DNA from: a candidate division Zixibacteria bacterium SM23_81
Lineage (GTDB): Bacteria > SM23-81
Direction of reading: 5' to 3'
DNA length: 64,000 nucleotides
Assembly: GCA_001304015.1 (NCBI GenBank)
Contig: LJUY01000011.1
Location: 1-64,000, forward strand
Position 1 is the stretch's first letter; each line of letters begins with the position of its first letter. The notes below the pieces were generated by a model that was not told the DNA's origin, ran no database searches, and saw only the letters and a program-made list of their open reading frames with translations. Below, piece by piece: positions 16,661 to 58,027 of this stretch. Made by a program: the position numbers and the translations under genes.

Positions 16661-16990
16661 CTAGAGATTCGTGAATCGAGATTCGAGACTCGTGAATCGT
16701 GAATCGTTGATCGTGAGAAAACTGGGGGACGGGGACCGGGATCCGTGAAAAATGAGATCAGAGACTCGAGACTTGTGAAGAAAACAGATCCTGGATAAAA
16801 GCAATAAGAAACGGTATTGTCTAGCTTCTAGCCTCCATACCAGCTTCCACAACCATAAACCAGCTTCTAGCTTGTGCTCACTGCCAAGGCCTTTTTCATT
16901 GCCATTGCTATTGCTATTTGCCATTCGCCTTTTACTGCTTACCGTTCTTTCCCTGCCAACTGCCACCATTCTTTTTCTGCTCACTACCGA
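16661..16990 (-). repeat. Intergenic mosaic repeat, copy B (reverse complement of copy A)
   Basis: Minus-sense text ctagaagctggtttatggttgtggaagctggtatggaggctagaagctagacaatacc... ccccagttttctcacgatcaacgattcacg matches 1113-1365. Confidence 0.9.
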
Positions 16991-18094: not shown

Positions 18095-18177
18095 GAACGT
18101 GTTTCGAGAATCGTGGATCGTGAAAAAAACATCCTGCGGATCATGCCAATCACGATTCACGAATCACGTGTTTTGCT
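18095..18177 (-). repeat. Short intergenic mosaic repeat, copy G (two inverted arms)
   Basis: Minus-sense cacgtgattcgtgaatcgtgatt...tttttcacgatccacgattctcgaaacacg; arms nearly complementary. Confidence 0.8.
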
Positions 18178-19017: not shown

Positions 19018-19443
19018 TTAGCCAAGCTCCAGGTGGGTGGGATTGGGCCCCAGCTCACGGACACGCTCGGTGAACTGCACGATCACATCTGCGAACTTTG
19101 TCCCCTCGCCGGCTGAAATCCATTCCAGATAGAGCCTCTCCGGCTCTATCCCAAACTGTGCCAGCAACCTCTTCGCCAAAGCCACCCTCGCCTGAGCCTT
19201 AAAATTGCCTGAGAGGTAATGGCAGTCGCCAGGATGGCAGCCGCCAACGAAAACCCCATCGGCACCCCGGGCAAAAGCGGCCAGAATGTGAGAAACATCA
19301 ATTCTTCCCGTGCACATCACTCTAACCAGAGACAAGTTGGCTGGATATTTCAGGCGGGAAGTACCCGCCAGGTCGGCTCCAGCGTAAGTGCACCAATTAC
19401 AGGCAAAGCCCACAATCTGCGGCTTCCACTTTTTATCGGACAT
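19018..19443 (-). CDS. mvhD: MvhD-like hydrogenase iron-sulfur subunit (HdrA partner)
   Basis: GFACNWCTYAGADLAG, RVMCTGRID, GCHPGDCHY. Confidence 0.9.
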   Translation of the reverse strand: MSDKKWKPQIVGFACNWCTYAGADLAGTSRLKYPANLSLVRVMCTGRIDVSHILAAFARGADGVFVGGCHPGDCHYLSGNFKAQARVALAKRLLAQFGIEPERLYLEWISAGEGTKFADVIVQFTERVRELGPNPTHLELG

Positions 19444-22400
19444 GGGAGAGAATCGCTCCTATCTGGGCTAAAATCTGTTCATCGCTATAATGTCTCATGA
19501 AGATGCATCCCGATGGGCAGGTGGCTCCGCAGGCTCCGCATCCCTTACACAACACCTCGTTCACCGTCATGATTCCTTTGTCCTCATCGAAGCTCAAAGC
19601 GCCATACTCACACACCGCCTCACAGAGGCGACATCCTGAGCAGAGATCCTCATCTATCACGGCAGTGATGGGCTCAATCCGCACCCTTCCCCTGGCCATG
19701 GGTGCGATGGCCGAGGCGGCTGCTCCCTTGGCCTGAGCCACCGCGTCCGGGATATCTTTGGGACCCTGACAACAGCCCGCCAAGTAGATGCCGTCGATGG
19801 CTGTCTCCACTGGGCGCAGCTTCGGGTGGGCTTCCATCAGGAAACCGTCCGCGGAGCAACCCAGCCTCAGTAGATTAGCCACGCCCTCGGTGTTGGCATT
19901 GGGGGTCATGCCGGCGGCCAGCACCACCAGATCCACCTCCAGCTCCACCGTCTGGCCCAGGAGCGTGTCCTCAGCTCTGACCACCAACCGCTCACCCTTC
20001 TTGTAGATTTCCGAGGGGTTGCCTCGCCGATAGACCACGCCCTCCTCTTTCACTCTCACGTAGAATTCCTCGAAGCCCTTGCCAAAGGCCCTCACATCGG
20101 TGTAAAAAACGGTCACATTAGCCTCGGGGTTTTTCTCCTTTATCAGGTGGGCCTGTTTGGTCGTGGCCATGCAGCAAACACGAGAGCAGTACTCGTTACC
20201 CACCGTCTCGTCCCGGGAACCCACGCAGAGAATGAAAGCTACGTCTTTAGGCTCCCGACCTGCCACAAGGATCTTGCCCGCGGTGGGACCCGAGGGGGAG
20301 GAAAGTCTCTCGAATTCCAGGCCGGTGATGACATTTTCATACTGGCTGTATCCCAGCTCCGGCTTCACCTGGGCGTCAAACTGATCAAATCCCGTGGCCA
20401 CCACGATGGTGCCTACCTGGGTTGATACGATCTCGTCCCTGAGGGCGTGATCGATGGCTTGGGGTTCACAGACCCGTTCGCACTCCCGACATTCGCAGCA
20501 GATGCCACAGTTGAGACATCTCCCAGCCTCCTCCACGGCTTCTTTCTCGGAGTATCCTAGAGTCACCTCCGCAAATCCCGGGATTCTCTTCTTGACCGGC
20601 AGCCTGCTCTCGGCTATTCTATCCCGTTTTGGACGATGGGCCAGGCCGGGGACCTCAGTAACCACCTGGAGATTGACTTCCCTTCCCTCTCGCAAATCCA
20701 CTCCTTTGACGAACCGGTCAATGGAAATGGCGACCCGTCTGCCGGCCGCGATGGCCTCAATCACTGTGGCGGGGCCGCTGACCACGTCTCCGCCGGCGAA
20801 TACTCCCGGCATATTTGTCTCCAGGGTAACGGGATCGGCCACCAGTGTCCCCCACGAGGTGACGTCTAGAGAAGCTTTCTTGGTGACGAAGGACAGGTCC
20901 GGATATTCCCCGATGGCCACCACCACCGCATCCGCATCCAGCTGGAAATGAGATCCTTCCAGTGGAATGGGCCTCCGTCGACCGCTCTCATCCGGGGCAC
21001 CCAGCTTCATTTTCTGACATTTCAACCCCACCACTTGCCCGTCTTTCGTCAAGATCCTCACCGGGATGCCCAGAAAATGAATCCGGACGCCTTCCGCCTC
21101 GGCCTCTTTCACCTCCTCTGAATAGGCAGGCATCTCTTCTCGAGATCGCCGGTAGAGGATGGTGACCTCCTGGGCTCCCAGGCGCACGAGAGACCGTGCG
21201 GCGTCCACGGCGGCGTTGCCTCCTCCGATTACCACCATCCGTCCCTTAATCTTGATCGATCGACCGGTGTTGAGCTTCTTCAGAAGATCCAGAGCGTAAA
21301 ATACTCCTTTGGCTTTCTCCCCCGGCACCCCCAGTTTCCTCTCTCCATAAGCACCGGTGGCCAGAAAGATCGCCCGATGCCCCTGCTCAAATAGCTCTGG
21401 AACGGTGAATTCCCGCCCCAAAGCAGAATCGGTCACCAGTTCAACTCCAAATTCTGTTATATAGTCGATGTCCTCTTGGAGTGCTTCTCGGGGCAGTCGA
21501 AATGCCGGAATGCCCAGGGCCAGCATCCCACCGACCATCTTCTCCGCCTCAAACACCGAGACGGAATACCCCCAGCTGGCCAAATCCCGGGCAGCGGTCA
21601 AACCGGCGGGACCAGCTCCCACCACGGCCACCTTTCCTTTCTTCCTGGAGTTCCCCGTGCCTCTCTTTTTGGGGGGAGAGGTTTGTTTCTGAGATCCTCT
21701 TCCCTCCTGGGCGATGAATCTCTTCAGGTGGCGTATAGCGATGGGTTGGTCCAGTTCCCCCCGCTTGCATTCATTCTCGCAGGGATGGGAACAGACCCGC
21801 CCGCAGACAGAGGCAAAAGGATTGGCCTCTCTCTCCAAGGCCAGGGCCTCCTGGTACTTCCCGCAGGTGATAAGAGCAATATAGCCTTGAACGTTAACCC
21901 CTGCAGGACAGGTGGCTCGACAGGGAGGTACTCCCGTCTTCTGGATGACGAATTTGTTGGGCACTGCCTGAGGGAAGGCTCTGTAAATGGCCTTCCGGGA
22001 GGAGAGTCCCATGTCGAACTGGTTAGACACATTCACGGGACAGACCGAGGTGCACTCGTCGCAGGCGTTACACTTAACCCAATCGACGTAGGGAGCCTTT
22101 CGGCGGATCTTGACGGTAAAATTGCCCACATATCCGTCAATCTCCTCCACCTCGGAATAGGCATAAAGCTGGATATTGGGGTGTCTTTCCACCTCCACCA
22201 TCTTGGGTGTCAAGATGCACGCGGAACAGTCCAGGGTGGGAAAGGTCTTGTCCAGCTGGGCCATGTGCCCGCCGATGCTGGGGTCCTTCTCCACCAAATG
22301 AACTTTAAATCCTGCATCGGCGATGTCCAGAGCCGTTTGGATGCCAGAAATTCCTGCGCCAATGACTAAGGCCTCTGGCACAACGGGTACCTCGCGCACA

Positions 22401-22828
22401 TCCATGGGCTCCAGCAAGGCGCTCCTGGCTACAGCAGAGGCCACCAGCCTTTTGGCCTTTTCGGTGGCTTCGGTTTCATCGTCGTGAACCCAGGAGCACT
22501 GCTCTCGAATATTGGCGATTTCCAGACAGTAGGGATTCAGTCCAGCCTCCTCGAGTGTTTTCCTGAAAGTGGGCTCATGCAAACGAGGAGAACAGATAGC
22601 TGTCACGACCCTGTTGACCCCTAGCTTTTCGATGTCCTCCACAATGAGCCTCTGCCCGGGGTCCGAACAGACATAGGAGTAATCTCGGGCTATGACCACC
22701 TCCGGCAAAGAGGCGGCGAACTTCACTACCTTGGAAACATCGACGGTGGCGGCGATGTTAACGCCGCAGTGGCAGACATAAACTCCGATCTTCCGGTCGC
22801 CTCCGGCCCCTTTTTCTTTTTTCTTCAC
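19433..22828 (-). CDS. hdrA: HdrA-like protein with inserted GltD-type NAD(P)H/FAD domain and C-terminal ferredoxin
   Basis: HdrA: VYVCHCGVNIA, GAGISGIQTALDIADAGFKVHLVEKDPSIGGHMAQLDKTFPTLDCSACILTPKM; GltD: CRATCPAGVNVQGYIALI, VCGRVCSHPCENECKRG, GPAGLTAARDLASWGYSVSVFEAE; ends CSGCRLCEAVCEYGA / CKGCGACGATCPSG. GTG 22828 preceded by ggaggagaag. Confidence 0.9.
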   Translation of the reverse strand: MKKKEKGAGGDRKIGVYVCHCGVNIAATVDVSKVVKFAASLPEVVIARDYSYVCSDPGQRLIVEDIEKLGVNRVVTAICSPRLHEPTFRKTLEEAGLNPYCLEIANIREQCSWVHDDETEATEKAKRLVASAVARSALLEPMDVREVPVVPEALVIGAGISGIQTALDIADAGFKVHLVEKDPSIGGHMAQLDKTFPTLDCSACILTPKMVEVERHPNIQLYAYSEVEEIDGYVGNFTVKIRRKAPYVDWVKCNACDECTSVCPVNVSNQFDMGLSSRKAIYRAFPQAVPNKFVIQKTGVPPCRATCPAGVNVQGYIALITCGKYQEALALEREANPFASVCGRVCSHPCENECKRGELDQPIAIRHLKRFIAQEGRGSQKQTSPPKKRGTGNSRKKGKVAVVGAGPAGLTAARDLASWGYSVSVFEAEKMVGGMLALGIPAFRLPREALQEDIDYITEFGVELVTDSALGREFTVPELFEQGHRAIFLATGAYGERKLGVPGEKAKGVFYALDLLKKLNTGRSIKIKGRMVVIGGGNAAVDAARSLVRLGAQEVTILYRRSREEMPAYSEEVKEAEAEGVRIHFLGIPVRILTKDGQVVGLKCQKMKLGAPDESGRRRPIPLEGSHFQLDADAVVVAIGEYPDLSFVTKKASLDVTSWGTLVADPVTLETNMPGVFAGGDVVSGPATVIEAIAAGRRVAISIDRFVKGVDLREGREVNLQVVTEVPGLAHRPKRDRIAESRLPVKKRIPGFAEVTLGYSEKEAVEEAGRCLNCGICCECRECERVCEPQAIDHALRDEIVSTQVGTIVVATGFDQFDAQVKPELGYSQYENVITGLEFERLSSPSGPTAGKILVAGREPKDVAFILCVGSRDETVGNEYCSRVCCMATTKQAHLIKEKNPEANVTVFYTDVRAFGKGFEEFYVRVKEEGVVYRRGNPSEIYKKGERLVVRAEDTLLGQTVELEVDLVVLAAGMTPNANTEGVANLLRLGCSADGFLMEAHPKLRPVETAIDGIYLAGCCQGPKDIPDAVAQAKGAAASAIAPMARGRVRIEPITAVIDEDLCSGCRLCEAVCEYGALSFDEDKGIMTVNEVLCKGCGACGATCPSGCIFMRHYSDEQILAQIGAILSHVR

Positions 22829-22893
22829 GCCAACTTCTCCTCCAGCGGCGAATGGGTTTCCCAATCTACCTCTTAACAAGGTCCAAAGGAGTC

Positions 22894-23373
22894 TTAGTCC
22901 TTGCTTTTCCAGGGGGTCACCCACTGGGCCACCCGCTCTTCAATCTGGCTCCTGTTTTCCTTTCTCATGGCCACAGCTAGCTGGCCGGCCACCTCGGCCT
23001 GGGGAAAAAGCATTCTCATGGTAGAAAAGGTGGCCTCCTCTCCCCGAGAAGCCATAGTACAAAACAGTGCCACCCTTTTTCCGCTCAGGTCTTGAGATTC
23101 CAAAAAGGCTCGCACGGCCGGCGCCGGTCGCGAGGCCCAGACGGGCGTGCCCACGAAAATGAGATCGTAGTCGCTGGACTGGCGCTGGAGAGGTTTCAAC
23201 TCGGTGGTCTTGTCCCGGACGGCATCCCGCCCCGAGCGAAGATAGCCCAGAAGACCCCTTCGATCCTTCTTGTCCACCAGCTCCTCGAGATCTGCCTTCA
23301 GTTCCCCAGCGATCATCTCGGCAACTTGCTTTGTGTTGCCCGTTCGAGAATAATACACTACCAGGGCTTTCAT
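22894..23373 (-). CDS. Flavodoxin
   Basis: MKALVVYYSRTGNTKQVAEMI; GTPVWASRPAPAVRAFL. Confidence 0.92.
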   Translation of the reverse strand: MKALVVYYSRTGNTKQVAEMIAGELKADLEELVDKKDRRGLLGYLRSGRDAVRDKTTELKPLQRQSSDYDLIFVGTPVWASRPAPAVRAFLESQDLSGKRVALFCTMASRGEEATFSTMRMLFPQAEVAGQLAVAMRKENRSQIEERVAQWVTPWKSKD

Positions 23374-23395: not shown

Positions 23396-24370
23396 CTAGT
23401 TCTCCTTCGCCTCGGCGATCTTCTCCGTCAAGGCCGGCACTACCTGAAACAGATCGCCGACGATGCCGTAATGGGCTACGGAGAAAATAGGCGCGTTGGG
23501 ATCTCTGTTGATGGCCACGATGGTCTCCGCGCCGCTCATCCCGGTAATATGTTGAAAAGCACCGCTTATGCCTACGGCCACATAGACTTTTGGCTTCACA
23601 GTACGACCTGACTGGCCCACCTGACGATCCGAGGACAGCCAGCCGGAGTCGGTGATGGGGCGGGAACATGCCAAAACACCACCCATGGCCTCAGCCAACC
23701 CCTCAACGATGGGCATGTTCTTCTCCTCTCTGATCCCCCGGCCCACGGAAACGATGATGTCGGCCTGGGTAATATCCACGTCACCCACCACCGCCTCTAC
23801 ATACTGGAGGAATTTCCGGCAGGTTATCTCTTCCGTCAGGGGGGAATCCACGGCCGCGATCTTACCCTTGAGATCTGATTCCTCGACGGGAAAAGCTCCC
23901 TGACGCAGGGTCACCATGCACGGCGTGCCGACGAAGGAGACCTCCGAAATTAGCTTCCCCCCATAGACCTGCCGGGTGGCCAAAGGGGCGCCATCTTTTA
24001 ATTGGATGTCCACACAGTCGGTGATTAAGGGAATTCCCAGCTGGGTGGCCAAGGGAGGGGCTAAATCCACACCAAAGGAGGTGTGTCCGATCATCGTCAA
24101 GCCCGGTTGTCTCTTCTTTATGATGTCGCCCAGGACTTTCTGGTAGGCATCAGCATTGAAATTCTCCAGTTTGGAGTCGTCCACCACCAAAACCTGATGG
24201 GCCCATTTTTTCAGAGTTTCTGAAAAAACCGCCACATCACGGCCCAAAAGCCCGGCCACCAGTTGTGCGTCAAGGGCCTGAGCCAGCTCTCTACCCTTGG
24301 AGAGCATCTCCAAGGTGACATCCCGGAGCTCTCCCATACGGTGTTCGGCCAAAACGAGAATCTCCTTCAT
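23396..24370 (-). CDS. etfA: Electron transfer flavoprotein alpha subunit
   Basis: VGRGI, GASRP-equivalent ACSRPITDSGW, GQSGRTVKPKVYVAVGISGAFQH. Confidence 0.95.
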   Translation of the reverse strand: MKEILVLAEHRMGELRDVTLEMLSKGRELAQALDAQLVAGLLGRDVAVFSETLKKWAHQVLVVDDSKLENFNADAYQKVLGDIIKKRQPGLTMIGHTSFGVDLAPPLATQLGIPLITDCVDIQLKDGAPLATRQVYGGKLISEVSFVGTPCMVTLRQGAFPVEESDLKGKIAAVDSPLTEEITCRKFLQYVEAVVGDVDITQADIIVSVGRGIREEKNMPIVEGLAEAMGGVLACSRPITDSGWLSSDRQVGQSGRTVKPKVYVAVGISGAFQHITGMSGAETIVAINRDPNAPIFSVAHYGIVGDLFQVVPALTEKIAEAKEN

Positions 24371-25168
24371 CTACACCACCCCCCTTTCCCGGAATATCTC
24401 AGCCAGCTTGGTGGATACCTCCTCCGGTGCCCCCTCCAAGATCTGAGCACCCTCTCCTTTGGGCGGGACAGACAGCCTCTCCAAAATGGTCTTTGAGCCG
24501 GCTCGGCCAACCTCATTTTCCGTCAGTCCCAGATCCTTAAGGCTCATGACTTTAATGGGCTTCTTCATGGCTTTACGAAGCCCCAATATCGAGGCATACC
24601 TGGGCTCGTTGATCCCTGTCTGGATGGTTAGGACGGCAGGCAGCTCGATTTCCAAAAGCTCATGGGTTCCCCCCTCCAACTCTCTTTCGATTTTAGCTTT
24701 ACCATCCAGAATCTGCAGGCCAGTGACCATGGTAGCGTGAGGCAGTTCTAGGAGCTCTGCCAGTGTGGCTCCCACTTGGCTGTAGCCGTCATCGCTGGCG
24801 TAACAGCCGGTCAAAACCAGATCAAATTTTATGGTTTTCAAGGCGCCTGCCAAGGTTTTCGCCGTGGCAAAGGCATCTGATTGGGCAAAGTGCTCATCCG
24901 TGAGCCTCACCGCCTCATGGGTGCCTTTGGCCAGAAGGGAGCGAATGGTCTTATCCGCCGACTCGGGGCCCATAGTGACCAGGGTTATGGTTCCCCCGAA
25001 TTTCTCTGTCAGGAGCAGAGCCTCCTCCACGGCGTAGTTGTCGGCTTCGTTTACGTCAAAGACCAACCGTTCTTTTTTGATGTCGCGTCCAGTGTCGTCC
25101 ACCATCACCTCTGCCTCTGCGGTCAGGGGAACCTGCTTCACGCAGACCACAATATCCATGATCCTCAC
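24371..25168 (-). CDS. etfB: Electron transfer flavoprotein beta subunit
   Basis: MDIVVCVKQVPLTAEAEV, NEADNYAVEEAL. Confidence 0.95.
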   Translation of the reverse strand: MRIMDIVVCVKQVPLTAEAEVMVDDTGRDIKKERLVFDVNEADNYAVEEALLLTEKFGGTITLVTMGPESADKTIRSLLAKGTHEAVRLTDEHFAQSDAFATAKTLAGALKTIKFDLVLTGCYASDDGYSQVGATLAELLELPHATMVTGLQILDGKAKIERELEGGTHELLEIELPAVLTIQTGINEPRYASILGLRKAMKKPIKVMSLKDLGLTENEVGRAGSKTILERLSVPPKGEGAQILEGAPEEVSTKLAEIFRERGVV

Positions 25169-25199
25169 CCCCTGCGTAGGTGGGAAATGCTATAAGCAA

Positions 25200-25583
25200 A
25201 CATGAATCGTGATTCGTGAATCGTTAATCGTTGATCGTGAGAAAACCGGGGTACGGGGACCGGGAAAATCCAAGACTCGAGATTCGAGAGGAAAATCCAA
25301 GACTCGAGATTCGAGATTCGTGATTTGTGAAAATCATAGTGGCAATTGGCAATGGCAGTCCCCTACCCCCAACCATCCCAGTAGGCAGTAGGCAGGAAGC
25401 AGGAGGCAGTGAAAGACGAGTGGCAGTTGGTATTGGGGAGCGGGGCAAATCTAAAATCTCAAATCTTCAATTTTCAATCTTCAATGCCTTTTTACATCGA
25501 TTCTCGAATCTCGATCCACGATTCACGATTCTCGTGTCTCGGCTTTTCAAGGATCAATCGAACTTCTCCAATAATCCGGGCTA
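25200..25583 (-). repeat. Intergenic mosaic repeat, copy C
   Basis: Minus-sense: attattggagaagttcgattgatccttgaaaag lead block, gaatcgtgaatcgtggatcgagattcgag arm, ggcagt/tgcc words, cccggtccccgtaccccggttttctcacgatcaacgattaacgattcacgaatcacgattc arm. Confidence 0.88.
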
Positions 25584-26583
25584 GAGAGCCGTCTCCACAA
25601 TCTCGATGAGATCTAGAACCCGAATTTTTTCCTCATTCCCGGTGGTTTTCACGGCGTCCTCAAGGGTTAGCAAACATCTCCCGGTTTCGATCCAGCTCCG
25701 CGAACTCCAGACCGGGTATCTTCCCCAAGATGCCGCGAGGCTCCTCGAAGATGTCGTTCTGCTTACCCAGAAAACAGGGATCATGATAAGTCACCCGCCA
25801 CCCCAGCTCTTTGGAGAAGCTCAGCCGTTCCTCCTGGATGAGCTCCCAGATGACCTGCGTATAGTGGCGGACATCGCCCTCGAATGGGGAGTACTCATTT
25901 TTAAAGACATTGAAACAATGGGGCGATGTGGTCATCAGCTGACGGGCACCACGTTCCTGGAAAAGCTTCAGGTTGTTCTCCTTCAACTCCTCGAACAGCC
26001 CCTCCTCACCCATACGTCGGACCTCGTTGCCACAGCAGGACTCCTCGATGCCTAGGATGCCAAAGGCGACGCCGGCTTTCTCCAGCACCTTCACCATCGC
26101 CCGGGCCAATTTCTGCAACCGGGGATCGTAGGCCACAGTGCATCCGACGTAATAGACCAAATCTAGCTTAGCCTTCGGGTCTGCTTCCCTGACCTTCAGG
26201 TCAGCGGCCCAATCGTTCCGCTTCTCCCTGGGCTTTCCCCAGGGATTGCCGTGGAGAAAGGTGCTCTCCAGAGCATCTCGCATGGTGGGTTGAATCCGCC
26301 CGCTCTCGATAAGCTGGCTGCGAACCTGGATGATCACATCCAAGGGCTTGATACCCTTGGGGCAGCGCGAGCTGCAGGTCATGCAGGTGGTGCATTGCCA
26401 AAGCTCGCTCTCCTCGGAATTGAAGGCCAGAGATGGCTGCAGAAGAATCTCGTTAAGAAGACCTCTGACGTTCAGGACGGAGTTTGTGGATACGGGGCAA
26501 CCCGCCGTGCACTTCCCGCACTGAACACATCGCAGCACACGATGCGCGCTGACAAGCTCTGGAGAAGAAACCTGAACTTCCAT
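25581..26583 (-). pseudogene. HdrD/GlpC-like Fe-S oxidoreductase, C-terminal CCG domain disrupted by apparent deletion plus frameshift
   Basis: Frame 1 (25660-26583): CVQCGKCTAGCP, CTTCMTCSSRCP, CCG1 ESCCGNEV, CCG2 start DPCFLGKQNDIFEEPRGIL...ELDRNREM then stop; the C-terminus LEDAVKTTGNEEKIRVLDLIEIVE resumes in another frame (25581-25784). Confidence 0.8.
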
Positions 26584-26618: not shown

Positions 26619-27752
26619 TTATCTCACAAGCTCCCTGGCGATGACCAGCCTCTGGATCTCTGAGGTGCCCTCGCCGATCTCGCAGAGTCGGACATCCCGA
26701 TAGTACCGCTCCAAGGGAAAATTTTCCATGTAGCCCCGGCCACCGAAAATCTGCATGGCCTGGTGGGTCACCAGGAAGCCCACTTCGGAAGCGTACAGCT
26801 TGGCCATGGCCGACTCTTTGGTGAACTTTTGTCCCCCATCCTTTAGCCTTGCAGCCAGGTAGATAAGCTGCCGAGCCGCCTCCACCTGGGTGGCCATGTC
26901 GGCTAATTTCCACTGGATGGCCTGAAACTGGCCGATAGGCCGTCCAAATTGCACCCGCTCCTTGGCCCGTTCGATGCTCTTATCCAGAGCCCCCTGAGCG
27001 ATGCCCAGAGCCATGGCTCCGATGCTGATCCTGCCCCCGTCTAGAGTGATCATGAACTGCTTAAATCCCTCTCCCTCTCTGCCCAGGAGATTCTCTTTAG
27101 GCACGCGCAGATCCTGGAAAAAAAGCTCGGCAGTATCGGCGCCCCGCAACCCCAACTTGTTCTCCTTCTTCCCCACCGAAAGTCCCGGCATCCCCTTTTC
27201 CAGAATAAATGAGCTGATGCCTTTCGTCCTCGGCTCTGATCCGGTCCTGGCCGTGATGACGAAGGTCTCGGCGACGCTGGCATTGGTGATGAAACACTTG
27301 GAGCCTTCGATGACGTAAGAATCACCATCCAAGACGGCTGTGGTCTTGGTGGCCCCAGCATCTGATCCCGCCTCCGGTTCCGTCAAACCGAAGGCACCAA
27401 GCGATGTGCCTCGAGCAAGGGGGGGGACATATTTTTTCTTCTGATCCTCCGTTCCAAACAGAAGGATTGGCGCGATGGCCAAGGAGTTGTGGGCGGCCAC
27501 GGTGATCCCAGTGGAGCCGCAGGCCCGGGAGATCTCTTCCACGGCGATGGCATAGCTGACAGTGTCCAACCCCAGGCCCCCATATTCCGGGGGATAGTTG
27601 ACGCCCATGATGCCCATGGCAGCCAGCTTGCGAATAACATTCCAGGGGAATTCTCCCTTTTGATCGATCTCAGCGGCTATGGGTTCGAGCTCCCGGAGGA
27701 CAAAATCGCGCATTCTCTGACGGAAAGTGACCTGTTCCGATGTCAGATTCAC
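26619..27752 (-). CDS. Acyl-CoA dehydrogenase
   Basis: GAFGLTEPEAGSDAGATKT, FGGRGYMENFPLERYYRDVRLCEIGEGTSEIQRLVIAREL. Confidence 0.95.
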   Translation of the reverse strand: MNLTSEQVTFRQRMRDFVLRELEPIAAEIDQKGEFPWNVIRKLAAMGIMGVNYPPEYGGLGLDTVSYAIAVEEISRACGSTGITVAAHNSLAIAPILLFGTEDQKKKYVPPLARGTSLGAFGLTEPEAGSDAGATKTTAVLDGDSYVIEGSKCFITNASVAETFVITARTGSEPRTKGISSFILEKGMPGLSVGKKENKLGLRGADTAELFFQDLRVPKENLLGREGEGFKQFMITLDGGRISIGAMALGIAQGALDKSIERAKERVQFGRPIGQFQAIQWKLADMATQVEAARQLIYLAARLKDGGQKFTKESAMAKLYASEVGFLVTHQAMQIFGGRGYMENFPLERYYRDVRLCEIGEGTSEIQRLVIARELVR

Positions 27753-39428: not shown

Positions 39429-40694
39429 TTAATCTCTGTGCACCTCCAGCAACCCATCCACGAAGGCTGCGGGAAGACGCAACATTCTGTAATAACCCTG
39501 GCGGTGCCTACCTATGACAACTGGATTCAACCACTCCCACACCAATTCTCCCTCGTGGGTCACTTCGAATACTCGCCCTTGATCACTTTCAGAGATGAAG
39601 GTGTTCCCGTTGGGAAGTCGCTGGGCTGCGCCTTTTCTGCAGGAGTAAAAATCATCTGGCGGATCCGCCATGTACTCCCACACAATGTACTCAGCAAGGG
39701 GATCTAGCTCCACCACCCTGGAGTACCTGCGCTGGGTGCCATTGTCGAATACGAGAATGTGACCATTTGGTAACATCGTCGGATGGTGTGGCTCCTCCAG
39801 ATTACCCTCGCCCCAGGCCCACAGGACGCGGTAGGTGTCTTTCTCCAACACGGCGATTTGGTTCACATTTCGGAAACAGACCAGCAAATTGCCCCGCTGA
39901 AAGCGCCCATCTTTCTCTCCCAAGTCGTTATCCGGAATTATGTTGACTGTATTCATGTGAAAATATTCTAAGTCTCGATGCACACGCAGCCTCCCGGGCG
40001 AAGCCGAGATTTTGCTCTCGGGAGGTGAGCTGCCACGGGTGCTGTCGAGGACAGTGTCCAGAAACGACCTGGTGTCGAGAACGCCTTTGAGTTGGGCCAA
40101 ATTTTTATATGAAGACCACCTATCCAGCTCCTCTCCCTTGGCACTTATATGCACCAGAGCATCGAACCACACTTGCTTGTCTCTGTGTGCCCAGCGCTCC
40201 TTCACGATGGCGTAGAACGAACCATCTGGCGCCTGAGCCACGTCATGGTGGGCCGACATCTTCTTTCTCCATATTAGGTCTGAATCCCAGTTAAGCCGGA
40301 GCAAATCTCCAACTTTTATGACCATCAGATCTCCGTTCTCCAACAAGACGGCGTGGTCGGCGATGACACCGCCCCTAGAGGAGTATTCCCAGCGATGCAC
40401 TTCTTGCCCCATCATGTCCAACAAGAACGCCTTCCCAGAGTGGTTGGTACAGTAAAAGTTGTAGCCAGCATAGCTCTTCTCCGGATCATAGAGAACAACC
40501 CCAGCCTCGTTCGCATCGACGAGGTCTTCGGAGTGGGAAATATAGGGTACGGAGCGTAGCATCTCTAACCGCTGATACCAGTCCGGCTTTTTCGAGGTAG
40601 CCTCATCGGCTAAGGTCCCAAATGGAATGGACAGGAGGAACAAGCCCGGCATAACCATCCTCATCAGTGTTCGCGTGTGACCGTAAAAGTTCAT
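39429..40694 (-). CDS. Arylsulfotransferase (ASST)-like beta-propeller protein, paralogue 3
   Basis: AHHDVAQAPDGSFYAIV, HHPTMLPNGHILVFDNGTQRRYSRVVELDPLAEYIVWEYMADPPDDFYS; signal peptide; ATGA overlap with previous gene. Confidence 0.78.
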   Translation of the reverse strand: MNFYGHTRTLMRMVMPGLFLLSIPFGTLADEATSKKPDWYQRLEMLRSVPYISHSEDLVDANEAGVVLYDPEKSYAGYNFYCTNHSGKAFLLDMMGQEVHRWEYSSRGGVIADHAVLLENGDLMVIKVGDLLRLNWDSDLIWRKKMSAHHDVAQAPDGSFYAIVKERWAHRDKQVWFDALVHISAKGEELDRWSSYKNLAQLKGVLDTRSFLDTVLDSTRGSSPPESKISASPGRLRVHRDLEYFHMNTVNIIPDNDLGEKDGRFQRGNLLVCFRNVNQIAVLEKDTYRVLWAWGEGNLEEPHHPTMLPNGHILVFDNGTQRRYSRVVELDPLAEYIVWEYMADPPDDFYSCRKGAAQRLPNGNTFISESDQGRVFEVTHEGELVWEWLNPVVIGRHRQGYYRMLRLPAAFVDGLLEVHRD

Positions 40695-42085
40695 TCCCAC
40701 CACCTCCACCTCTGCTGCAGCTTGTCCACCTGGGCTTTGGGCAGGCGCGTCAACCTGTAGAGGGTCTCGCGGCGCCCATCTCTGATGGACGGATTTAACC
40801 AGGTCCACACCACTTCTCCCTGCTGGGTCACCTCGAAAACATGCCCTTTATCGCTTTCACAGATGAGCGTATTCCCATTGGGAAGCCGCTGGGCTGAACC
40901 TCTGCCAAAGGAAAAAAAATCCTCCGGTGGCTCCGCCATGTACTCCCAGACAATGGCCCCGGCTACGGGATCCAGCTCCACCACCCGGGAGTATTCGCGC
41001 TCGACTCCATTGTCGAATATCAGGATATGGCCGTCTTCCAGCATCGTCGGATGATGGGGCCACTGCAACTGGCCCTCGCCCCAGGCCCACAGGACGCGGT
41101 AGGTGCCCTTTTCCAACACAGCGATCTGGTTGACATTCCGGAAACAGACCAACAAATTTCCCATCTGAAATCGCGAATCTCTTTCTCCTAATCCAGTAGC
41201 CGGGAGCACGCCGATGGTATTGGTGTGAAAGTAGTCCAGGCCACCACGACGCAGGGCCAACTCCTTCTTAACTTCAGCCGACCTCCTGTCCTCCTGCGAT
41301 GGGTCACTTTGGAGGTGTACGTGAAAGCGGCCGATTTCCTTGCCACTATGCGTTTTTGTTTTCTTAACCACGTCCGGCTTCCTATCCTCTGGCGACCAGA
41401 CACAGAGGGCGCTGTCCAGAATGGAGTCCAGAAACGACCTCGTGTCCAGAACGCTCTTGATCTCGGCCAAATGATCGTAAGTGTTCCACCTATCGATTTC
41501 CTCTCCGTCCGGCGTCAAATGCACTATAGCGTCGACCCTCACCCTCATCCCCCTGTGAGTTATGTACTCTCGGACGGCGACATAAAAGGATCCATCAGGT
41601 GCTGGAGCCACGTCATGATGCACCGCCAGTTCCTTTTTCCAGATCAGCTTCGAGTCCCAGTCGAGGCGGAACAGTTCCTGAAACATTTTGATGACTACTA
41701 AATCTCCGTTCTCCAACATAACGGCGTGCTCGGAGCCGCTGATCTCTTTCTGGGGGATATATGTCCATCTGTGCACCACCTGGCCGTCAATGTCCAACAA
41801 CAAAGCCTCGCCGGATGAGCTGGTGCAGTAAAGATTATAGCCTTCACAGGCTTTCTCTGGATCATAGAACAAAACGCCAGCTTCGCTCTCATTGGCCATG
41901 GATTCGGTCAAACTAACATAGGGCATAGAACGGAGCATTTCCAGCTGCTTTTTCCAACCTTCTGGCTTCTTCGAGGTCCGTTCGTCGCCCCGGATGCTCG
42001 TTGAAACCGAGATCAGAACCAGGCTCAGCACAACTATCCTCACCAGTCTCCGCTTGTAACTGCAAAAGCTCATTCCCGCCGCCAT
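40691..42085 (-). CDS. Arylsulfotransferase-like beta-propeller protein, paralogue 2
   Basis: Same family motifs as neighbours (HHDVAPAPDGSFYVAV, HHPTMLEDGHILIFDNGVEREYSRVVELDP); TAATG overlap with previous gene. Confidence 0.78.
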   Translation of the reverse strand: MAAGMSFCSYKRRLVRIVVLSLVLISVSTSIRGDERTSKKPEGWKKQLEMLRSMPYVSLTESMANESEAGVLFYDPEKACEGYNLYCTSSSGEALLLDIDGQVVHRWTYIPQKEISGSEHAVMLENGDLVVIKMFQELFRLDWDSKLIWKKELAVHHDVAPAPDGSFYVAVREYITHRGMRVRVDAIVHLTPDGEEIDRWNTYDHLAEIKSVLDTRSFLDSILDSALCVWSPEDRKPDVVKKTKTHSGKEIGRFHVHLQSDPSQEDRRSAEVKKELALRRGGLDYFHTNTIGVLPATGLGERDSRFQMGNLLVCFRNVNQIAVLEKGTYRVLWAWGEGQLQWPHHPTMLEDGHILIFDNGVEREYSRVVELDPVAGAIVWEYMAEPPEDFFSFGRGSAQRLPNGNTLICESDKGHVFEVTQQGEVVWTWLNPSIRDGRRETLYRLTRLPKAQVDKLQQRWRWWE

Positions 42086-43305
42086 TACCTTTTCATAAAC
42101 CTGTCCACCTGTTCTTCAGGAACGCGCGTCATCCTATAGACAGTAGCGCGGCTCTGCTTACCGACCATCGGACTTAACCACTTCCACACCATTTCCCCAT
42201 CCATGGTCACCTCGAAAGCCCGCCCCTTATTACTCTCACAGATGAGCGTATTCCCGTTGGGAAGCCGCTGAGTCGAACCTCTGTCGTATGAGTAAAAATC
42301 CTCAGGCACCTCTGCCATGTACTCCCAGACAATAGCCTCTGTCACGGGGTCCAGCTCCACTACTCGGGAGTATTTGCGCTTGATGCCATTGTCGAAGATG
42401 AGTATATGACCATTGGGCAGCATCGTCGGTTGGTGTGGCCATTCCAATTGACCCTCGCCCCAAGCCCAGAGCACACGATAGGTATCCTTTTCCAACACAG
42501 CTATCTGGTTTACGTTCCGGAAACAGACCAGCAAATTACCCATCTGAAATCGTGAATCTTTTCTTCCCAAAGGTGTGGCCGGGAGTAGATTCACAGTATT
42601 CATGTGAAAGTAATCGCGTTGGTAGCGGGACAGTATCCTGTACTCAGCTTCATCAAAGTTTTCACCCCTTTCCGACCAGTCAGCAAGAAGACCATCCAGA
42701 GCTGTGTCCAGAAACGACCTGGTGTCGAGAACGTTCCTGATGTCAGCCAAATGATCATAGGTGGACCACATATCGATTTCTTCGCCGTCCGCCGTCATAT
42801 GCACAAGGGTGTCGAACAACACTGACAATCCCCTGTGGGTTTTAGTCTCTTGAACGATGACGTAAAACGAGCCATCAGGTGCTGGAGCCACATCATGATG
42901 CACCGCCAGTGTCCTTCTCCAGATTAGCTCCGAGTCCCAATTGATCCGAAGCAGCCCCATCAATTTCACTATGATCAGCTCTCCGCTTTCCAGCATGACG
43001 GCATGACGGGAGAAGTTGCCCTGTAATCGCGGATAAGTCCATCGGTGTACCACTCGGCCCTCCATGTCCAGCAAAAAAACCTCTCCAGACGACCAGGCGC
43101 AGTATAAGTTATATCCGCTATAGGCCTTCTCTGGATTATAGAGCACCACGCCGGTGTCGGTCTCATCAACGGCGGTTTCGGAGTAACCAACATAAGGCAC
43201 AGAGCGGAGCATCTCCAGCCGCCTTATCCACTCTTCGGATTTCCTCGAGGTTTCTTCGTCAGCCCGGCTGCTCGTTGAGATTAAGACCAGACTCAAAACC
43301 AGCAA
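42085..43305 (-). CDS. Arylsulfotransferase-like beta-propeller protein, paralogue 1
   Basis: HHDVAPAPDGSFYVIV, HQPTMLPNGHILIFDNGIKRKYSRVVELDPVTEAIVWEYMAEVPEDFYS. Confidence 0.78.
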   Translation of the reverse strand: MLVLSLVLISTSSRADEETSRKSEEWIRRLEMLRSVPYVGYSETAVDETDTGVVLYNPEKAYSGYNLYCAWSSGEVFLLDMEGRVVHRWTYPRLQGNFSRHAVMLESGELIIVKLMGLLRINWDSELIWRRTLAVHHDVAPAPDGSFYVIVQETKTHRGLSVLFDTLVHMTADGEEIDMWSTYDHLADIRNVLDTRSFLDTALDGLLADWSERGENFDEAEYRILSRYQRDYFHMNTVNLLPATPLGRKDSRFQMGNLLVCFRNVNQIAVLEKDTYRVLWAWGEGQLEWPHQPTMLPNGHILIFDNGIKRKYSRVVELDPVTEAIVWEYMAEVPEDFYSYDRGSTQRLPNGNTLICESNKGRAFEVTMDGEMVWKWLSPMVGKQSRATVYRMTRVPEEQVDRFMKR

Positions 43306-53764: not shown

Positions 53765-54000
53765 TTAAAACGGTTGATCTCGAAAATCATTTGGCGGTTT
53801 CGAAGCTCGTAACGAGACTCGAGATTCGTGATTCGAAAAAACCTGCCAACTGCTACTGCTATTTCCATTGCTATTGCCGATTTCCTCTGTATTTCTCACG
53901 AGTCTCGAATCTCGATTCACGATCCACGATTCACGATCAAAGGTTTTTCAAGGATCAATCGAGCTTCTTGAATAATCCGGGCTAAAAACGGTTGATAACG
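53765..54000 (-). repeat. Intergenic mosaic repeat, copy F
   Basis: Minus-sense attattcaagaagctcgattgatccttgaaaaacc lead block (as in C), gatcgtgaatcgtggatcgtgaatcgag arm, ggcaatagcaatggaaatagcagtagcagttggcag words, cgaatcacgaatctcgagtctcg arm. Confidence 0.88.
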
Positions 54001-56145: not shown

Positions 56146-58027
56146 TTACTCGTTTACCTTGCCACATCTTTGTTTGATATGTCCTTGTTTGTCTTTTCCC
56201 AATGTCCTCGACGGTAGTCTTTTTTGACTATCCATCACCATGGACGCAAAATAATAAACACAACTGGCTGTCCCATCAATAGTCGGTTCATTTGTTGAAT
56301 AATCGCCGACATCATCGTGATAAACCGCCAAAGAGCATTGAAAAACAGAATATTCATCATCTCCTTCCAAATGTATATGTTTTAAATTCTCATAGATGCT
56401 GCTATAGACCGGCCCATCTAGCAAACCGCCATCGAGTCTGTAGCCATACAAATGGGTGAACGCCGAATGTAGGGTCTCGGGCATAATTACCATCTGGGGG
56501 TAGTCCAATAACCATACTTATGCCCCAGGGATTACACCCCAACAGCCAATCACGCATGGCAGTTTCCAGTTTCAAATAGCTGCTATCTCCCGAAAGCTTT
56601 CGATAAAGGTAACACTGCGTGATAAATGCTGCTACTAAATTATTGGAACACCAAATGAAAGGGATCCCCATCAAAAACGCATTGTCTTTAGCTCGCTGCC
56701 AAACTTTCTCAATACCTTGCTGATAATAATCTGCAAGTTCTTGTTTTAATTCATCAGGGACATTTTGAGCCAGTTCATAGTGGCCGATATTTATGAATGG
56801 ATACCACTGGTAATGGCGAGCAGTTTCTTCCCCTAACCAGGGTGTAATTTTCTCCTGTTGGCTATATTTGTAAGCATCATCTAAGAAATCTTTGTCGCCA
56901 GTCAGCGAATACATTTCTGCGGCCGCGAGTTCCATGTCATCAACCCAGTTGTCTTCTTCATAAAAATAGGGTGCCCTACAAGGTGCTGTCTGACAGACAC
57001 CTGGTTTCTCTCTTCCAAATTCATAAGCACTTAGCGCTTTTTCTTGAAGCACTCCGGCAAAAGTTGTATCTATATAGTAAAAGATCTCGGCTCCTAATGC
57101 AAAGGCAGATGCAAATTTCCCAGCTGTTGAGGCGACTCCGGTGGTTCTATTCTTATTTTCAAATATCCCTTGCGCTTTGCCGGAACAAAAATAGACCGGA
57201 CGCTCAAGTCCCCTGCTGTAGCTAACAGAATCCATCGTCGGCAAGCGAAAGCCAGCGTGGTCGCGATCATCTGCAACTTGGTTAAACATATAATTCTCGC
57301 TAGGATGCATCTTCATCAACCAGTTCAGACCCCATCGTGCTTCATCTAATATATCAGGGATACCATTTGGAGCCGGCATGCCACTTGCATCGTATTGATC
57401 GGCAAAGACAGAAGGATGATCACGATAGGCTAAGAGCAGCTGAAAGGTGGCGTTTGCAGAAGTTGCTGCATATTTCAAGTAATCTGAAGCATCATGCCAG
57501 CCCCCAGTAACATCGATATGAGTACCATCTGGCATAGGACCGTAAATGGTATAGCCATCACTCTTATGACAGGAATCGCTTAAAAAGGGATTGAAGCCAC
57601 AGCGTTGCTGCCGCAGGTATTTTAAAAGAAAATCAGCACTACCATCATATACTTTGTCATTTATTTTAAATATCGGTGATCGTATACCATCCATAAGCAA
57701 ATAATAATTTCCTTTCTTTTGAAACGAACTAAAATTCAATCGAAAAGTGCTGACAAAAGGCCCATATGCCCCCGTATCATTTATTTGTCCTGAAGACCAA
57801 ATTTGCTCGTTTGTAGCGGCATCATGTATATGAAATTGATCGCATTCCATACTGCTTTTACTGCATAGGACTGCGATCTTCACAGATTCTGAGAGATAGC
57901 CTAACTGGTTAATCCTAATCCAACTATTATCAGTCGATTGACTGCTCGTTGAACAGCCAATTACCAGCAGAAAAAGTGCTGATAGCGTTTTGCTTACTTG
58001 AGAAATACCTTGCACGGAGCACCCCAA
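56146..58027 (-). pseudogene. Glycoside hydrolase family 9 (lipoprotein), split by a frameshift near 56485
   Basis: ORF1 56402-58027: RINQLGYLSESVKIAVL, DVTGGWHDASDYLKY, GIPDILDEARWGLNWLMKM; ORF2 (ends 56146): HSAFTHLYGYRLDGGLLDGPVYSSIYEN...YHDDVGDYSTNEPTIDGTAS, the GH9 C-terminus. Confidence 0.85.

Follow-up and report, generated by a model that had tools for sequence, protein, structure and literature searches.

An EtfD/HdrD-like gene of candidate division Zixibacteria bacterium SM23_81 that lacks most of its second CCG domain

The gene and its operon

The window, a stretch of 64,000 nucleotides from the candidate division Zixibacteria bacterium SM23_81 (contig LJUY01000011.1), carries on its minus strand genes in the order thiolase, hydroxyacyl-CoA dehydrogenase, two acyl-CoA dehydrogenases, a broken EtfD/HdrD-like gene, etfB, etfA, a flavodoxin-like gene, an HdrA-like gene and an MvhD-like gene. 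The same order is found in Candidatus Zixiibacteriota bacterium CSMAG_1598, a member of the same family (hereafter the sister), where it is spread over two contigs that overlap within etfB. The features discussed are the following.

26619-27752, minus strand: acyl-CoA dehydrogenase, directly upstream of the broken gene, intact (NCBIfam acyl-CoA dehydrogenase families; 86% identical in the sister)
26583-25660, minus strand: truncated EtfD/HdrD-like gene, 307 codons (open reading frame and translation)
Residues 16-78 of its product: 4Fe-4S dicluster domain (Pfam Fer4_8)
Residues 143-227 of its product: CCG domain 1, complete (Pfam CCG, E 6.8e-21)
25676/25677, minus strand: deletion junction (blastn and single-gap alignment to the sister orthologue)
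25676-25581, minus strand: out-of-frame C-terminal remnant, CLLTLEDAVKTTGNEEKIRVLDLIEIVETAL and a stop, in the +1 frame (last 31 codons)
24371-25168, minus strand: etfB (electron transfer flavoprotein beta), intact (NCBIfam; 82% identical in the sister, dN/dS 0.08)
23396-24370, minus strand: etfA, intact (NCBIfam; 77% identical in the sister, dN/dS 0.12)
19433-22924, minus strand: HdrA-like gene with an inserted GltD/NfnB-like module (NCBIfam/Pfam)
19018-19443, minus strand: MvhD/FlpD-like protein (Pfam FlpD, 1.2e-54)

The truncated gene begins with an ATG at 26583 and ends with a TGA at 25662-25660, its protein finishing in DPCFLGKQNDIFEEPRGILGKIPGLEFAELDRNREMFANP, that is, in DRNREMFANP followed by the stop. 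The two N-terminal 4Fe-4S motifs are present (C19, C22, C25, C29, C64, C67, C70 and C74), and these eight cysteines are invariant in a 16-member alignment. The cysteines of the first CCG domain (C148, C183, C184 and C223) are likewise all encoded. The second CCG domain can be followed up to HDPC...DRNRE, after which the product continues with MFANP and stops, and Pfam recognizes one CCG domain in the window product against two in the intact orthologue.

A parallel operon lies on contig C99 of the same genome, in the order thiolase, hydroxyacyl-CoA dehydrogenase, acyl-CoA dehydrogenase, EtfD-like gene, etfB, etfA, acyl-CoA dehydrogenase and HdrA-like genes. Its EtfD-like protein is an intact paralogue, 53% identical to that of the sister and with all cysteines present. 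Both genes would code for electron carriers of fat breakdown in an uncultured organism. Linkage to etfBA and acyl-CoA dehydrogenases is shared by the window, the sister, C99 and one further relative (L042); another (L039) is linked to etfBA, and the relatives in Chloroflexi are linked to hdrA instead.

Several other features of the window were recorded. The module inserted in the HdrA-like protein is a GltD/NfnB-like NAD(P)-binding module of ~450 aa (about 20419-21945), which is missing from the HdrA of the sister (L134) and present in the Chloroflexi relatives L043-L045. Between etfA and hdrA the window has a complete flavodoxin-like gene (22894-23373, 159 aa); in the sister counterpart (L134, 3189-3347) only ~53 residues match, which suggests that the sister copy has decayed. 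Degenerate intergenic stretches of short words (of the types TCGTGAA/TCGAGAT, CAGTAGGCAG and AATCTTCAAT) occur at 25186-25580 and also at 16664-16716, 18104-18162 and 53909-53936. For the 422-bp stretch 25169-25590 there are 60 more partial matches elsewhere in the same genome, and some also in that of the sister, but the intergenic space of the sister at this site measures only about 70 bp. Moreover, three consecutive arylsulfotransferase-like (ASST) genes are located at 39429-43305.

The missing segment

The reference for the comparison was the orthologue of the sister (L038, G001:C8, record DAOVRJ010000237.1), which lies in the same genomic place, has 378 codons and both CCG domains, and is 78% identical to the window gene. 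The DNA alignment of the two contains one net gap, with 134 bp (one base short of 45 codons) absent from the window between GAGA and TGTTTGCTAACC; identity is 77% before the gap and 81% after it. The segment that is gone corresponds to residues 303-347 of the orthologue and takes with it C306, C307 and C345; the second CCG domain has five cysteines in all. The loss also puts the last 31 codons, C348 among them, out of frame, leaving C270 as the only member encoded of the set C270, C306, C307, C345 and C348 that is complete in the orthologue. Because the remnant translation is identical to the orthologue C-terminus at 26 of 31 residues, and was picked up in a search of its own genome at E = 2.4e-10, it is not a chance reading frame. 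The gene therefore carries a 134-bp frameshifting deletion relative to an intact orthologue, one of the two marks by which a pseudogene was judged.

An earlier note on this DNA, made from its letters, had described a protein that reads normally, stops after FANP and has its continuation in another frame, and this is confirmed by the remnant. Its proposal that a deletion or frameshift in an hdrD-like gene had removed the second set of CCG cysteines is borne out by the comparison with the sister. The loss had been put at 25668-25676 and at about 40 residues; the junction lies instead at 25676/25677 and 45 codons are affected. The missing block had been worded as CCGGGGG, which has to be corrected, since this clade has CCEGGGG...CPF.

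A +1 shift of the ribosome at the CCT TGA codons would lead exactly into the remnant frame, so that a programmed frameshift at CCU-UGA could be imagined to restore the C-terminus. However, the frameshifted product would still be without C306, C307 and C345, the relatives have a normal uninterrupted frame and no stimulatory element for frameshifting was identified. The chance that the gene is read in this way is considered negligible.

A rival of more weight is an artefact of assembly or consensus, in which the gene is intact in the organism and the assembler or a gap-closing step bridged a gap wrongly, or was led by chimeric reads or a minor strain. The assembly is a draft in 99 contigs, 92.6% complete and with 4% contamination, and a second gene of the window has an apparent frameshift as well. 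This is a GH9-family glycoside hydrolase gene (56146-58027, minus strand) interrupted near 56470, with profile positions 5-383 and 385-442 lying in different frames. On the other hand, the longest repeat common to the two breakpoint flanks in the sister measures 5 bp, so that a collapse in the k-mer graph is not expected. This 5-bp word is absent at the window junction. When the lost segment was sought on the other contigs of the genome only paralogues were found, with no strain duplicate or split contig. In addition, none of the six neighbouring genes that were aligned with the sister is interrupted, and when ~46 genes were scanned for coding potential no other clear frame switch came up, although the switch in the GH9 gene escaped the same scan. 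An artefact is judged unlikely on this evidence, yet it is by a wide margin the most serious of the alternatives, and it is with fair confidence that the lesion is taken to be real.

Relatives, constraint and the age of the lesion

The motif CCEGGGG...CPFC is kept in 11 of the 11 other members of the close subfamily that were examined, and the truncation occurs in none of them. One of these members is that of the sister, one is the paralogue within the same genome, and the rest come from NPL-UPA2, Chloroflexi, Cloacimonadota and a deltaproteobacterium; two were overlooked by the first motif scan and proved complete in the alignment. Like the window gene, the close relatives have the ferredoxin-like domain at their very start and no N-terminal membrane or heme domain; their open frames are of 377-432 aa. 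The 16-member alignment contains 45 invariant columns, which include C270, C306, C307, C345 and C348.

The 5' part of the window gene is conserved to the same degree as the neighbouring genes, its dN/dS against the sister being 0.122 and that of six neighbouring genes 0.079-0.126. None of 42 positions invariant in the outgroups is changed in it, and the codon changes in the remnant are 14 synonymous and 5 nonsynonymous out of 31. Thus the gene was under normal constraint for nearly the whole period after it separated from the sister, and the second mark of a pseudogene, a relaxation of selection or decay once the lesion had arisen, was not found in these measures. In a relative-rate check the window branch had slightly the larger number of changes with most of the close outgroups (at the most 18 v 9, 18 v 7 and 14 v 5), with chi2 values of at most 4.8 and no consistency; this slight lean does not convincingly point to a faster window branch. 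As there is no decay, the lesion must be either recent, much younger than the sister split, or not in the organism, and the absence of decay signs around the junction is as compatible with an artefact as with a recent event.

The conservation of the 5' part might also be expected of a short EtfD/HdrC-like variant that functions with the two cubane clusters and the first CCG domain only. Moreover, the loss of the same CCG motif has a parallel in an unrelated 614-aa membrane EtfD-like protein (L026, G034:C184, minus strand), where ~31 residues over the second CCG motif are lost in frame and the site reads ELPRSRN / LQEAGAKTLAVGCPFC. However, the break in the window is out of frame and splits the fold of the second CCG domain, and no close relative is without this domain; for the latter reason the genuine variant, which the earlier note had left to an alignment of orthologues, is disfavoured. 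The natural reduced homologues FadF and DgcB have lost the cysteines of the first CCG domain (cluster D1 of EtfD) and retain D2, the cluster of the second (PMC13083937). A different phylum was scanned with 146 genomes, of which 135 gave matches; among the matches listed, whose lengths were assessed by eye, no further case without the second domain was seen. A functional variant is therefore held to be very improbable, and it is slightly more improbable still that the window protein and, independently, L026 are both real and functional and that ETF-linked electron transfer can proceed without the noncubane cluster D2.

Likely function and comparison with known systems

Sequence, fold and neighbourhood place the gene nearer to EtfD/EMO than to the HdrD of methanogens; EtfD/EMO is the relative of HdrBC/HdrD that is linked to ETF. 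The description as hdrD-like in the earlier note is refined in this respect. The closest solved protein is the EtfD of Mycobacterium smegmatis, to which the orthologue matches by sequence at E 5e-62 and its AlphaFold model (pTM 0.84) at a Foldseek E of 1.1e-23 (9ojn). In EtfD the ligands of the noncubane cluster D2 are the cysteines of the second CCG domain (Cys637, 672, 673, 709 and 712) together with His583, and D2 may be where electrons from ETF arrive first (PMC13083937). The earlier note had spoken of a second catalytic cluster; the term catalytic does not suit it, the EtfD site being an electron-transfer noncubane cluster (PMC13083937).

The ancestral product would have been a soluble EtfD/HdrD-like protein with two cubane clusters and two CCG sites. 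From neighbourhood and homology, its role was most likely to carry electrons between EtfAB, which the adjacent acyl-CoA dehydrogenases would feed, and HdrA/MvhD. A recent deletion of 134 bp would then have cost the D2-equivalent site three of its five cysteines and put a fourth out of frame, giving a product of 307 aa instead of 378 in which this cluster presumably cannot form; the loss of function is deduced from what the sequence has lost. Such a loss can probably be tolerated because the intact paralogue is retained in the parallel operon on C99. A recent loss-of-function deletion tolerated in this way is the probable explanation of the locus, and the gene is a disrupted copy of an ordinary sort, its protein belonging to a known kind and not to a new one. 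In annotation the window copy should be marked as disrupted and is unfit for inferring a working ETF-oxidising route, for which the C99 paralogue should be used. Should the deletion prove to be fixed in the population, one of the two parallel acyl-CoA dehydrogenase/Etf/Hdr operons would be a natural knockout.

The CCG proteins of the GlpC/TfrB/LdhH type share the same domain order. The top NCBIfam score was obtained with the TfrB C-terminus (172 bits, cutoff 385); all scores fall below the curated cutoffs, and the protein belongs to no named equivalog. The heterodisulfide reductases HdrBC/HdrD (5ODC, 8RWN) resemble the present protein in combining an HdrC-like dicluster with HdrB-like CCG domains, and homologues of hdrA and mvhD adjoin the gene here. 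However, HdrC and HdrB match as separate chains and with weaker scores, and the present operon contains etfBA and acyl-CoA dehydrogenases and has no known disulfide substrate. The EtfD of M. smegmatis (PDB 9OJN; ETF:menaquinone oxidoreductase, EMO family) differs in its membrane/heme part, which is absent here (378 aa), and in its first CCG domain, which has CPHC and CT where the present protein has SPHC and CC, while the window copy is in addition without most of the second. It agrees in having two cubane 4Fe-4S clusters followed by two CCG domains, and in its linkage to EtfAB and acyl-CoA dehydrogenases.
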